Positions 3,349 to 48,355 of a stretch of 64,000 nt of DNA are shown in pieces. This DNA is from an uncultured Litoreibacter sp. (GTDB lineage Bacteria; Pseudomonadota; Alphaproteobacteria; Rhodobacterales; Rhodobacteraceae), in assembly GCF_947487515.1 (NCBI RefSeq), contig NZ_CANKWO010000001.1:248001-312000 (forward strand), read 5' to 3'. The translations under genes and the position numbers were made by a program. Under the pieces are notes generated by a model. That model did not search any database. It saw only the letters and a list, made by a program, of their open reading frames with translations, and was not told where the DNA came from. The first letter of the stretch is position 1. The number at the start of each line of letters is the position of its first letter.

Positions 3349-4128
3349 ATGATCGAAGTTCACGACCTCCATAAGCATTTTGGTGGCTTTCACGCGGTTG
3401 ATGGTTCAACCCTGAGCATCGAAAAAGGGTCGATCACCGGATTGATCGGGCCAAACGGCGCAGGTAAAACCACACTTTTCAATGTCATAGCGGGTGTTCT
3501 TAAACCTACCTCTGGTACGGTTCTCATGGACGGCGAAGACATCACGGGCCTGCCTCCGCATGAACTCTTCACCAAGGGCCTTTTGCGGACGTTCCAAATT
3601 GCGCATGAGTTTTCGTCGATGACCCTGCGGGAAAACCTGATGATGGTTCCGGGAAACCAAGCAGGCGAAACCCTGTGGAACACGTGGTTCGGGCGCAAAC
3701 GAATTGCCGACGAGGAACGGGCGCTGGCGGCCAAGGCCGATGAGGTGCTGGAGTTTCTGACGATAGATCACATCAAAGAGGAGAAAGCTGGCAACATCTC
3801 TGGCGGGCAAAAGAAGCTGCTGGAGCTGGGCCGCACGATGATGGTCGACGCCAAGATCGTGTTCTTGGACGAGGTAGGTGCCGGCGTGAACCGCACCCTT
3901 CTCAACACCATTGGCGACGCGATCATCCGTTTGAACCAAGAACGCGGCTACACCTTCGTGGTGATTGAACACGATATGGATTTCATCGGGCGTCTTTGTG
4001 ATCCGGTGATTTGCATGGCGGAAGGCCGTGTGTTGGCCGAAGGCACGTTGGATGAGATCAAAGCCAATGAACATGTGATCGAGGCCTATCTGGGCACTGG
4101 ATTGAAGAACAAGGTGGCCTCCGCATGA
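3349..4128 (+). CDS. Branched-chain amino acid-type ABC transporter ATP-binding protein (LivG-like)
   Basis: A 259-residue ABC ATPase. Walker A is GPNGAGKTT (about residues 34-42). The signature is ISGGQKKLLELGR, followed by Walker B IVFLDEVGAGVN; the Glu after the Walker B Asp is present. The IEHDMDFIGRLCD segment contains the switch His. The C-terminal VIEAYLGTG ending is typical of LivG. It pairs with the next ATPase, whose start overlaps its stop by 4 nt (ATGA). It energises import through the two permeases of the same operon. Confidence 0.93.
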   Translation: MIEVHDLHKHFGGFHAVDGSTLSIEKGSITGLIGPNGAGKTTLFNVIAGVLKPTSGTVLMDGEDITGLPPHELFTKGLLRTFQIAHEFSSMTLRENLMMVPGNQAGETLWNTWFGRKRIADEERALAAKADEVLEFLTIDHIKEEKAGNISGGQKKLLELGRTMMVDAKIVFLDEVGAGVNRTLLNTIGDAIIRLNQERGYTFVVIEHDMDFIGRLCDPVICMAEGRVLAEGTLDEIKANEHVIEAYLGTGLKNKVASA

Positions 4129-10069: not shown

Positions 10070-10265
10070 GGGAGACCCTTTGTACATTCAGTGATACGCC
10101 CTAGGGTGACAGGCTTTGCGACCACGTCCCGACCATTCGCGACATTTTCAGGCCAGAAGCTGCCACCCCCAGCCGAATGGACCAGCAGCGACATATTAGG
10201 TCGGAATTGACGTTGTTCACGCTGTACCCAAGCCTCAGGATCAAGGGGCAACCAAGGAGATGCCC

Positions 10266-17714: not shown

Positions 17715-20036
17715 CTACGCGGCGGCGCTCAGATGCCGTCGCACTGTTGAAGTCAGCTCATCCAAAGAAAATGGCTTTGGCAGGAAGACAGATTCAGGGA
17801 TAGTCAGCTGTTCCTCAACCGTACTCCCGTCAGCGTATCCTGACATGAACACCACACGCAGTTTTGGATGATTTTTACGGGCTTCGGTGATCCAGGTTGG
17901 ACCGTCCATTCCGGGCATGATGACATCCGTCAACACAATGTCTATTTCCACAGTGTCGTCATTGATAATATCCAATGCCGCTTCACCGCAGTCGGCTTCG
18001 ACCACCTGAAATCCGCGATATTGCAATGCGCGACTGGCGAAGGCCCGTACGGGTGCTTCATCTTCAACAAGAAGAACAACCCCATCTCCCGGACCGGATT
18101 CTGACAAAACCGATAGCGTGTCGGCCTGTGTCTTTGCCGGCTCAACTGGCTTGTCGTGTGTGGGGAAGTAGATGGTAAATTCGGTTCCCTCACCTAACTC
18201 GCTGTCGGCAAATATAAAGCCGCCAGATTGTTTGATGATGCCATAGGCCGTGGACAGCCCCAATCCTGTGCCGTCTCCGGTTTTCTTTGTCGTGTAGAAC
18301 GGCTCGAAGATTTTATGTAACTTGTCCGGAGATATGCCACTTCCCGTATCGCTAACTTTCACAATGACATAGTCACCTGCAGGAACAACAGCTCTGTCCC
18401 GCCGCAGCTCCGAAGCCAAGCTGGCATTTCTTGTTTCAATCTCAATCGTGCCCTGCCCTCCAAGTGCGTCACGCGCGTTCACAACCAAGTTCATGAGGAC
18501 TTGTTCCAATTGCCTGCGATCAGCGCGCACGGACATCAAATTGGGATCATGCGACAATGATAAAGAAATCTGCGCACCCACAAGGCGGTTAAGCAAGTGG
18601 GTCAGGTCAGACAGCGTATCGCGTATATCCAACACCTCCAGTTGGAGGTTTTGCTTCCGGGAAAACGCCAACAGTTGCCCAACAAGAGAGGCCGCGCGAT
18701 TGGCGTTCTGGTTAATTTGCTCAAGGTCAGAGAAATCATTGTCGCCCGGGTCATGGCGCAACATCAACAGGTCGCAATGCCCTGAAATCGCCGTAAGAAG
18801 GTTATTGAAATCATGCGCGACCCCGCCCGCGAGCTGGCCGATTGCTTGCATTTTCTGACTTTGGACGAATTGCTTCTCAAGAGATTTCAACTCTGTTGCA
18901 TCATTAATCAAAACGATCAAAGAAACCACGCCATCATTGATCACCCTACCGAGCGTGACTTGCACATACATTTCGTCAGGGCCGCGTCTACATTTTAGAA
19001 CCTCTGGGCGATGAAGCCCCTTCCCTTCAAGGGCATCCGACAACCAATCCGAAATCGGGCGCCCCAATCCCTCGATAACATCACTCATGGTTTCGGCGGG
19101 TTGTTCTTCCAATCCTAGAAGAGAGCGTGCGATGCGGTTGGAATCTGAAATCCGCCCCGCCGCATCCAGTTCAAGCAAAGCAATCGGAAAGTCCTCCAAT
19201 TGCGCCATAGTTGCATCTGCCTTTGCCGACTTGGTGACCGGAGCGAGAAAGTACTCGGTACGCCCCAAAGCGCCATCGACAATGATCGCCATGACATCAA
19301 TCGGGCCATCCTGCCCACTCAACACAACGGCTTCACCGGAATGCTTGGGTGGATCGACGAAAATCACATCAAGTGACTTGGCTCGGCCTCCGACCAGTTT
19401 TCGCATAGCGTCATTCATGAACAGAACTGACCCAGACCCGCCAATTGTAAACATCGGCAAGGACAGTCTATCGGCTGCATGCCCTGCATTTTGGCTTTCC
19501 ATTTGCGAGTTATGCAGTCGCCAAATCAGATTGTCGGAATTGCCAACACGGTGGGTTGCGATGTGAAAATTGCCGCTTCTCGTAACGATATCCTCATGCG
19601 CAGCCCCAATTTTCTGAGCTTTGGCTTGTAGTCGAAACATTGTTGCGCTGGCGTTGGTGGTAATTTGTCCCAAAACGGCCTCAAAGGCATCGCCCTTTTG
19701 TTCAGGCAGCAGCTTTCTTGCAGCCATATTCTGCGACAAAACCGTGCCCGACGGATCGGTAACAAACACCGCCCATTCGTCATGCTCCATCATATCTTCA
19801 AGTGATACGCTCCCAAGCTTCGCGTCGCTGCTGCCGGACTTCGGCAGCAAGGACACGACGGCGACCAAGGCGCAAACAATCGCGGTTAACCCAATAACCC
19901 TGACATCACTGAAAATCAGCGAGGCCACCACCGCGATCGCCAAACAAGCCAAAGGCAAACCCAAACGTGAGGCGACACTAGAAATCTTTCCGATCTTGCG
20001 ATCTTCACCCCCCGTCGCATCCACCAGTTGGCTCAC
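17715..20036 (-). CDS. cckA: CckA-type hybrid histidine kinase
   Basis: A 773-residue inner-membrane kinase. It has two membrane helices near the N-terminus (about residues 25-65), then PAS-like regions, then the HisKA domain with GQLAGGVAHDFNNLLTAISG (phospho-acceptor His). The HATPase domain follows, with NLVVNARDALGG, DTGSGISPDKLHKIFEPFYTTK and GTGLGLSTAYGI, and then a C-terminal receiver (LLVEDEAPVRAFA, phospho-acceptor Asp in LTDVIMPGMDG). This order and the H-box context match CckA, which feeds phosphate through ChpT to CtrA. The GTG start at 20036 has AGGAG 8 nt upstream; an ATG at 20072 is the alternative but would leave only 13 nt after the CtrA-type site. Confidence 0.9.
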   Translation of the reverse strand: MSQLVDATGGEDRKIGKISSVASRLGLPLACLAIAVVASLIFSDVRVIGLTAIVCALVAVVSLLPKSGSSDAKLGSVSLEDMMEHDEWAVFVTDPSGTVLSQNMAARKLLPEQKGDAFEAVLGQITTNASATMFRLQAKAQKIGAAHEDIVTRSGNFHIATHRVGNSDNLIWRLHNSQMESQNAGHAADRLSLPMFTIGGSGSVLFMNDAMRKLVGGRAKSLDVIFVDPPKHSGEAVVLSGQDGPIDVMAIIVDGALGRTEYFLAPVTKSAKADATMAQLEDFPIALLELDAAGRISDSNRIARSLLGLEEQPAETMSDVIEGLGRPISDWLSDALEGKGLHRPEVLKCRRGPDEMYVQVTLGRVINDGVVSLIVLINDATELKSLEKQFVQSQKMQAIGQLAGGVAHDFNNLLTAISGHCDLLMLRHDPGDNDFSDLEQINQNANRAASLVGQLLAFSRKQNLQLEVLDIRDTLSDLTHLLNRLVGAQISLSLSHDPNLMSVRADRRQLEQVLMNLVVNARDALGGQGTIEIETRNASLASELRRDRAVVPAGDYVIVKVSDTGSGISPDKLHKIFEPFYTTKKTGDGTGLGLSTAYGIIKQSGGFIFADSELGEGTEFTIYFPTHDKPVEPAKTQADTLSVLSESGPGDGVVLLVEDEAPVRAFASRALQYRGFQVVEADCGEAALDIINDDTVEIDIVLTDVIMPGMDGPTWITEARKNHPKLRVVFMSGYADGSTVEEQLTIPESVFLPKPFSLDELTSTVRRHLSAAA

Positions 20037-46742: not shown

Positions 46743-46816
46743 GCGGGTATGGTGAAAAGGTATCACGGCAGCTTCCCAAGCTTTAGTTACGAGTTCGATT
46801 CTCGTTACCCGCTCCA
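46743..46816 (+). tRNA. tRNA-Gly (anticodon CCC)
   Basis: A 74-nt cloverleaf with encoded CCA. Acceptor stem GCGGGTA/TACCCGC, D arm GTGA/TCAC, anticodon loop TTCCCAA, T stem ACGAG/CTCGT with loop TTCGATT. The lower anticodon stem has one mismatch and one wobble. Its last 14 nt are repeated exactly at 47862-47875, marking it as the integration site of the element downstream. Confidence 0.93.
46803..46816 (+). repeat. Left attachment repeat (attL), within tRNA-Gly
   Basis: CGTTACCCGCTCCA, the last 14 nt of tRNA-Gly including CCA; identical to 47862-47875. The flanking bases differ on both sides, so the identity is exactly 14 bp. Confidence 0.75.
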
Positions 46817-46999
46817 TTGGCGTTAAATTGTGTATTTAAATCAGTAGATTATCTCATTTTGGCTGCACAACCCCACATCCTACCCCTCTTTGCATCTGTT
46901 CCTTAATGTGATGCTTTTAGGCTTTCCATTGCCCCCCTTCTAGCATAGCGTGAAGTCACCTAATTGCTTGATATTAATATTTTTTCAGAAAGCTTCAAA

Positions 47000-47267
47000 A
47001 TGAAGAAAGTTCTCTCTTTGGTTCCAATTCTTGCTGTTTCGGCATGTTTAGAAGCTGGTGAACCTATGGTGTCAGATTATAGATTATAATGGCCGGATCG
47101 TGAAAGTTCAGTTCCACAATGTTGCACTAGGTGAAAACTACCGTGAAAGTCCAATCTACGCCAAGGCAGTGGAGACCTGCAAACTAGATGGACGCAGCGA
47201 CGCAGCCTATCAAGGCGTTCGCCCGATCGGTGATCTTGCTGGCGAGCATGTCTTTTTGTGCCGGTAA
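47000..47267 (+). pseudogene. Small lipoprotein gene broken by a 7-bp tandem duplication
   Basis: The ATG at 47000 encodes MKKVLSLVPILAVSACLEAG (lipobox VSAC) but stops at 47089. AGATTAT is present twice in tandem (47074-47080, 47081-47087). Removing one copy restores one frame through 47267, giving ...EPMVSDYNGRIVKVQF... and a C-terminal HVFLCR. The restored protein aligns with the intact neighbour at 47297: both have CLExxEPxVSx[YF]NGxxV, a central TC...G motif and a terminal FxC. The duplication is therefore the disabling change. Confidence 0.75.
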
Positions 47268-47296
47268 CATTTATCTGAACGTGTACAATTGAAAGC

Positions 47297-47551
47297 ATGA
47301 AAATGAAAAAAACTGCAATCGCTCTTATCCTTATGTCAATAATTTCAGGCTGTTTGGAAATACCTGAGCCAGTTGTTTCTCAGTTCAATGGAAACACTGT
47401 TTCCATTCAAGGGGCTGGGCTTGCCCCTGTTTCAGCACCCGGCAGCGATGATATTACACTTGCGGAAGCAACCTGTGGCGGGGCTGTTCGGTACGCATCT
47501 GGAAGTGTCGTTGCGGATGGGCTTGTAGAACGCCTATTTATTTGTATCTAG
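47297..47551 (+). CDS. Small lipoprotein, paralogue of the broken upstream gene
   Basis: An 84-residue protein with an N-terminal lipoprotein signal (MKMKKTAIALILMSIISGC, lipobox ISGC), then LEIPEPVVSQFNGNTVSIQG and a tail containing ATCGGAVRY and LFICI. Two late cysteines could pair. No known family recognised. It lies inside the element at tRNA-Gly, 29 nt after its broken paralogue, and its stop overlaps the stop of the phage-like fragment on the other strand (CTAG). Confidence 0.7.
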   Translation: MKMKKTAIALILMSIISGCLEIPEPVVSQFNGNTVSIQGAGLAPVSAPGSDDITLAEATCGGAVRYASGSVVADGLVERLFICI

Positions 47552-47875
47552 CGCTCTAACAACATTTCAGACGTAGTCGAGTGTTGGTCTTCAGACATCA
47601 GCCCAAGCTGCATTGCCTTGTCAGCATCCACGCCAGCTTCTTTAGCTACCGCCAGCGCTTGAATGATGCCTTTCAGTTCCCTAGCCCTGCCGCCAGCATC
47701 AAACGCTTGTAGGGGCCGCATAATGTCGATCTTAACGGGGCTTCCCAGCTTGGTTGCGGCTTCCTCTGCCAACAAGGCACAGATTGGCTGCAAGGTCCAT
47801 TGTGCAAGGTGGCGTTGTGCTTCTCTTACCATTGGCCCAGTTGTTGCGGCATTGGTTTGACCGTTACCCGCTCCA
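47548..47875 (-). pseudogene. C-terminal fragment, possibly of a phage portal protein
   Basis: The minus-strand frame encodes NAATTGPMVREAQRHLAQW, then LLAEEAATKLGSPVKIDIMRPLQAFDAGGRARELKGI and a helical end. This resembles, from memory, the C-terminal part of phage portal proteins of this bacterial group, but it is not certain. The frame can be read into the host thioesterase start, but those first codons come from the repeat and host DNA. The gene is therefore cut at the right attachment repeat and lacks its N-terminal part. Confidence 0.5.
47862..47875 (+). repeat. Right attachment repeat (attR)
   Basis: An exact 14-bp copy of the tRNA-Gly 3' end (CGTTACCCGCTCCA). It ends 9 nt before the thioesterase start codon, so the ancestral tRNA-Gly 3' end was directly upstream of that gene. 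Confidence 0.75.
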
Positions 47876-47884
47876 AAATCTACG

Positions 47885-48355
47885 ATGACAGACATTCCTT
47901 ATCACGCCCCGCTCACCACTGACTCCCTGCGCAATCTGGGCATCCCAGAGCCTTGGACCATCGGGTTTGCCGACCGCGTGCGGTTTACAGAACTGGACCC
48001 TTTGGGGCATGTGAACAACGCCGCCTATCTAAGCTGGTTTGAGAATTTTCGACTGCAGTATATGGATTTCTACGGAGCTCCGCTTACCGGACGTGATGCC
48101 TATATGGTGGTTTTGCGCCAAGTTCAGGTGGACTATCTGGGCGAAATGAAGCTTGGGGATGACTATGTCGTCACTGGCCGCACCACCGTGCTGCGCACGT
48201 CCAGCTTTCAGATGGAGTATGCGGTCTGGTCGGGCGGCGCATTGCGCACCACATCAACGGCTGTGCTGGTGATGGTCAATGAGGATGGAAAATGCCCCAT
48301 CCCCCCAAAACTGCGCAGCATCCTGACGACCCGCGACGGGGCCATAAGCGCTTAG
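47885..48355 (+). CDS. Acyl-CoA thioesterase, hotdog fold (4HBT/YbgC-like)
   Basis: A 156-residue protein with the 4HBT signature [25 protein letters not shown] (acidic residue and the GHVNN turn), followed by [20 protein letters not shown]. The family hydrolyses acyl-CoA thioesters; chain length is unknown. The start is 9 nt after the right attachment repeat and has no clear ribosome site, so its present upstream region comes from the inserted element. Its stop overlaps the pgi stop on the other strand. Confidence 0.85.

Follow-up and report, generated by a model that had tools for sequence, protein, structure and literature searches.

The DNA inserted at the tRNA-Gly(CCC) gene of this window (the whole stretch of 64,000 nucleotides that was analysed) is very probably the tRNA-side end of a capsid-encoding satellite of about 10 kb, similar to the capsid-forming phage-inducible chromosomal islands (cf-PICIs), that had integrated in that gene. 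The 1-kb stretch is most likely an end that the satellite left behind, and it still holds one intact small lipoprotein gene. An earlier, sequence-only reading had proposed the remnant of an element integrated at a tRNA: this is supported by the attachment repeats and by empty sites in relatives, but the parent was most likely a satellite that encodes its own capsid, and not an ordinary prophage. The remnant is ordinary in itself, and it leads to a satellite group that is common in the window's family.

Attachment repeats and empty sites

The tRNA-Gly(CCC) gene that serves as integration site lies at 46743..46816 on the plus strand (assigned with ARAGORN). Its last 14 nt, CGTTACCCGCTCCA, which form the attL core (46803-46816), recur exactly and on the same strand at 47862-47875 as the attR core, with a spacing of 1,059 bp, just as had been read from the sequence; these are the sole two copies in the whole 3.34-Mb genome, both at this locus, and the same pattern read backwards has 0 occurrences in that genome. 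Within the right repeat, 12 nt are surely tRNA-like; its two initial bases (CG) are shared with the portal gene described below, and it is there that the portal homology stops. The DNA between the repeats (46817-47861) is indeed AT-richer, with a GC content of 47.1% versus 56.0% for the window, a value equally low in 6 of 1260 windows of the same size. It begins with AT-rich element DNA, which extends from the tRNA to the first cargo gene (46817..46999, no strand assigned). Beyond the right repeat follows a host thioesterase gene of the 4HBT type (47885..48355, plus strand; Pfam 4HBT_2). Its named relatives, of which no full-length one exceeds 54% identity, point to Rhodobacteraceae as the host family.

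We searched for this thioesterase in the genome of origin (G000) and in 60 relatives, and the locus is readable in 16 of the 20 same-genus genomes, those left out being G011, G013 and G014 (no thioesterase match) and G019 (a fragment at a contig edge). At seven of the 16 readable loci (G001, G002, G003, G008, G010, G012 and G016), the thioesterase starts 6 nt past tRNA-Gly and the 12-nt core is present once, which is the arrangement that had been predicted for strains without the element. Because of these single-copy empty sites, the insert is foreign; moreover, its DNA was found in 0 of the 20 other same-genus genomes searched, and therefore it is not the conserved core sequence that had been considered as a contrary outcome. 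Placed between direct repeats of a tRNA 3' end and missing from relatives with empty sites, the insert has the make-up of a tRNA-integrated mobile element remnant. The remaining loci are more varied: the gap between tRNA and thioesterase is 17-85 nt in G007, G015, G017, G018 and G020, about 0.3 kb in G004 and 1.3 kb in G006, with no second 12-nt core downstream of the tRNA in either of the latter two, and in G005 no tRNA is seen up to the contig end.

That the repeat is a coincidence, and the DNA ordinary lineage-specific sequence, is close to inconceivable: the repeat is short (14 nt, 12 of them certain) and the extra DNA in G004 and G006 shows that a gap can arise here with no second core copy, but exact same-strand 14-nt copies are expected within 2 kb at about 7e-6 (a uniform-base estimate), relatives have empty sites, and satellite portal sequence lies inside the insert.

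A full prophage with an integrase had also been anticipated at this tRNA in some relative, and G009 provides one: the gap of 16.7 kb is filled by a prophage that encodes a portal, a capsid, a tape measure and an integrase, the integrase gene adjoining the thioesterase. At the right end of this prophage, TTACCCGCTCCA occurs twice, 22 bp apart (positions 19938 and 19960 of L068, G009:C1:827000-846999), a doubling that looks like a scar, as if the site had been used earlier.

Portal fragment and parent element

The minus-strand open frame at 47548-47895 had been taken for a phage-like fragment cut at the right repeat, and it is a gene fragment whose homology ends at the first two bases of that repeat. 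The homologous part, 47604..47863 on the minus strand, covers roughly the final quarter of a satellite portal gene, at its 3' end, with 94% DNA identity over 260 bp to the portal gene of the viral contig L155; the open frame itself extends past this homology into unrelated DNA on both sides. At the protein level, the fragment is 91% identical to the L155 portal over residues 258-348 of 353, and the best viral-contig matches of the open frame are to L155 (95% aa) and L156 (94%). Profile searches with the frame gave no family match, and the phage records no match; in 47 of 393 other genomes of the family it matches places that in most cases form the C-terminal portion of an open frame some 350-550 aa long. 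On the tRNA side the homology stops short of the L155 stop codon, and therefore the last few codons of the portal differ. The frame is intact and has diverged from L155 by 0.20 at synonymous sites, and so the cut looks recent.

The L155 contig, of 10.6 kb, encodes in order an integrase, an AlpA-like protein, an AAA/primase protein, a head closure protein, a terminase, an HNH protein, a capsid protein, a protease, an ORF in the connector position and the portal, past which lies a convergent ORF with weak TPR matches. The portal was assigned by gene order and by weak profile matches, the scores of which (36.3 bits for L155 and 33.5 bits for L312) lie below the Pfam cut-off of 39.1 bits; the portal of L312 has no PHROG match. 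This second contig (10,473 bp) is nearly complete, running from the whole tRNA-Gly(CCC) through the cargo slot and the portal to the integrase start codon, where it ends, leaving the integrase-side att end out of view. Both contigs (10.6 and 10.5 kb) encode capsid and protease, recognised by profile, together with TerL, HNH, an integrase and a match of the AlpA/excisionase type; head closure is recognised by profile in L155 only, the gene in the connector position has no match in either, no adapter or closure protein was recognised in L312, and a small terminase was not identified in L155 or L312. Inspection of the ORFs and a PHROGs scan of 10 proteins from L155 and 10 from L312 revealed no tail family, several ORFs in each remaining without assignment. 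A comparison with solved structures gave one weak match for the capsid and none for the portal.

In these respects L155 and L312 resemble the cf-PICIs: they are integrated elements of about 10 kb, known here from their genes alone, that carry their own capsid, head protease, portal (by matches below the cut-off) and connector proteins (closure in L155 only), their own terminase and HNH packaging genes, and an integrase with an AlpA-type regulator, and that are free of tail genes as far as the libraries see. The gene list given in PMC13230959 comprises capsid, portal, protease, adapter, closure, HNH, terminases and a regulator, for satellites presented there as having no tail genes; L155 fits this list, and L312 does so in the main. 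According to part of PMC12846349, the capsid of an Escherichia coli cf-PICI groups by structure with that of the Rhodobacter capsulatus gene transfer agent. There are also differences: the L155 portal finds no phage relative, the cargo of the relatives lies between portal and tRNA, and the window has the cargo end only, so that the insert itself lacks the cf-PICI gene set and retains a portal 3' end and cargo. Satellites in the orientation of the window (tRNA, slot, portal) are carried by four of the 60 viral stretches with a tRNA-Gly(CCC) 3' end (L272, L284, L303 and L312; L303 and L190 are the same contig), and the slot proteins vary from element to element. An intact satellite at tRNA-Gly with both a portal of the L155 type and the window's lipoproteins was not found, and the ancestor is a composite drawn from L155, L176 and L312.

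Descent from an ordinary tailed prophage, with the lipoproteins as lysogenic-conversion genes, appears improbable. The prophage in G009 occupies the same tRNA-Gly(CCC) 3' end, and the Pseudanabaena phage Pan4 encodes a distant relative of the lipoprotein, its gene being placed after an XRE-type regulator gene. However, a search of 50,697 phage records with the L155 portal gave no match (E<=1e-3), and close relatives of this portal sit in elements of about 10 kb with no recognised tail genes. The G009 prophage is unrelated: it differs in its size and in its tape measure gene, its integrase shares only 24% identity with the L312 integrase, and the L155 portal has no counterpart in G009 at E<=1e-3, so this prophage is not the source.

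The fragment might instead derive from head genes that the host itself carries, in a gene transfer agent or some other cluster, a reading to which we assign a negligible chance. Gene transfer agents are common in Rhodobacteraceae, and the genome does have one other, intact portal gene (L241, G000:C1:415562-416554); against this, the fragment matches satellites at 91-95% aa, and the L155 portal, searched against the same genome, finds only the fragment itself and no other portal of that kind. A terminase search of the genome, run with no positive control, gave no match.

Lipoprotein cargo and probable loss of the satellite

A pair of lipoproteins had been named as the surviving cargo, and half of this holds: the second gene (47297..47551, plus strand; 84 aa) is an intact ORF, but the first (47000..47267, plus strand) is a pseudogene, frameshifted at a 7-bp tandem duplication (47075-47088), as judged by eye from the sequence and its ORFs. 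The start of gene 1 resembles that of gene 2 (CLExxEPxVS), and on this reading by eye gene 1 may be a paralogue of gene 2; its downstream piece alone has no relative among the loci compared. The further claim, that these genes have no counterpart elsewhere, was checked by genome searches with two queries, the insert and the intact lipoprotein; each has one match in the genome of origin.

Lipoprotein 2 is 66% identical to an 82-aa lipoprotein encoded just beyond the portal, and convergent to it, in L176, and a more distant relative occurs in the same place and orientation in L321 and L322, two contigs that could represent the same element sampled twice. A comparison of the window gene with that of L176 gives a dN/dS of 0.13 over 81 codons, with dS near saturation; because of this value, the lipoprotein family appears to have been under purifying selection, a statement that concerns the family and says nothing on the time since the deletion. 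A search of 394 genomes of the family returned the gene itself and only four weak relatives (L323-L326), and no satellite gene was found near these by tblastn in the 12-15 kb fetched; therefore, the lipoprotein family is not confined to satellites. When viral contigs were scanned with only the window lipoprotein as query, no relative came up, even though L176 has the 66% one, which the pattern step missed; empty pattern scans are therefore weak evidence.

Both lipoproteins are without a match in PADLOC, Pfam and NCBIfam, and against PHROGs they gave chance-level matches only, the best (E 0.23) being to the Cor superinfection exclusion family over residues 3-29. The AlphaFold model of lipoprotein 2, built from a three-sequence alignment, has a mean pLDDT of 58. 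Its export and lipidation are predicted from a lipobox pattern in the sequence. We infer that lipoprotein 2 would be exported and lipidated and would serve the resident element by hindering the entry of other phages, that is, by superinfection exclusion. The T5/BF23 protein Llp, described in part of PMC4728585 as a small phage-encoded lipoprotein that blocks a receptor and excludes superinfection, offers a proposed functional parallel only, the two proteins being likened by description.

The remnant may have arisen as follows. A tyrosine integrase would have placed the satellite of about 10 kb into the 3' end of tRNA-Gly(CCC), giving an ancestral order of tRNA 3' end, cargo slot, portal, connector-position gene, protease, capsid, HNH, terminase, replication genes, AlpA-like gene, integrase and second att. 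Everything from the integrase through most of the portal would then have been lost, probably in a single deletion from within the portal to the right att core, so that the slot, the last quarter of the portal and both att copies remain. Either the integrase cut at the core, or the core gave a short homology (the shared CG) for the end of the deletion; we favour the involvement of one or the other, because a deletion ending at random would seldom stop just at the edge of the core. The remnant would be immobile by itself.

Alternatively, the 1-kb unit could be a non-autonomous cargo cassette, in which the att copies and the slot move together, mobilised in trans by the integrase of a resident satellite or prophage. 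In its favour, neither att copy has been lost, the break is at the core, and the genome has six tyrosine-integrase matches (for example L238, G000:C1:355438-355905), one of them 34% identical to the L312 integrase; however, the unit is in 0 of 20 other same-genus genomes, the family-wide lipoprotein search yielded little besides the gene itself, and ten other tRNA-bearing loci tested show no clear second att copy at the portal break. We regard such a cassette as highly improbable, and return to the deletion of a larger satellite as the preferred account.

Partial portals are found elsewhere in the family: 15 of the partial matches, the window included, reach residue 331 or beyond, and the others are two internal pieces of the last third and one N-terminal piece (G636), the split matches in G258, G368 and G420 having been set aside from this count. 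Fourteen of the first 17 pieces begin at residues 256-316 of 353, and three pieces (G098, G333 and G356) are no more than about 0.4 kb away from a contig end. That C-terminal pieces prevail may in part be detection bias, as the C-terminal part is the best conserved and the easiest found. Several truncated pieces lie near a tRNA and abut unrelated sequence. At L247, upstream of position 3971, a C-terminal portal piece is joined in frame to other sequence, which by its motif looks like that of a serine recombinase.

Two candidate sequences within the portal gene were considered and rejected. A cis-acting site (a second att or a packaging signal) was sought by a scan of synonymous diversity in 75 of 80 portals, five having been dropped as incomplete or out of frame; codons 256-267 gave 1.14-1.18 bits versus 1.37 overall, and other stretches are as low. 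As for a pseudo-att at the break, the right repeat matches the L155 portal at 6 of 14 bases there, which is too few.

Distribution of the satellite group

A portal match, with fragments and a few distant homologues included, is present in 51 of the 394 genomes of the window's family. In the best 80 of 161 confirmed viral loci with a portal of the L155 type, a terminase is encoded in 72, a capsid in 79 and a protease in 78; 13 loci encode a relative of the L155 integrase and 15 one of the L176 integrase, many of the contigs being partial. A tRNA is seen beyond the portal in 23 of these 80, and its 3' end faces the portal in 23/23. In the family genomes there are 16 distinct loci with a portal-facing tRNA (18 of 43 portal matches, two of them duplicates); many of the flanks in this set span just 1.5 kb, and the remaining matches have no tRNA in reach. 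At L252, the tRNAs lie on the opposite side of the satellite portal.

The capsid and terminase of L155 have only distant phage relatives, and the absence of its portal from the 50,697 phage records fits an independent lineage of satellites. The cargo slot has a fixed place, from the portal stop codon to the tRNA, and its contents can be collected directly as candidates for anti-phage or host-conversion functions. A wider proposal would be that capsid-forming satellites radiated separately, and long ago, in this family, with a portal outside the phage records searched, in which slot lipoproteins exclude rival phages, decay tends to leave the tRNA-side end and hosts keep the exclusion gene; taken as a whole, we consider this unlikely. 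Among publications on Rhodobacter, Rhodobacterales and Roseobacter, no title or beginning of an abstract announces such satellites, and the original list of cf-PICI elements could include some; PMC12324425, in the part available here, treats other elements.

The L155 portal was found in 1 of 72,556 plasmid records, a 1.58-Mb plasmid of Pseudorhodobacter turbinis with two satellite-portal places (NZ_CP039965.1, 1200998-1202038). In four contigs of 9.0-14.3 kb (L185, L192, L206 and L208), the portal or its upstream neighbours are near the start and terminase, capsid or protease at the end, an order such as would be expected of circularly permuted free satellite genomes. Additionally, L234 has two tRNA-Phe genes in direct orientation (1174-1260 and 10188-10262), about 9 kb apart with satellite genes between them, and this pair may give the full length of an integrated element.
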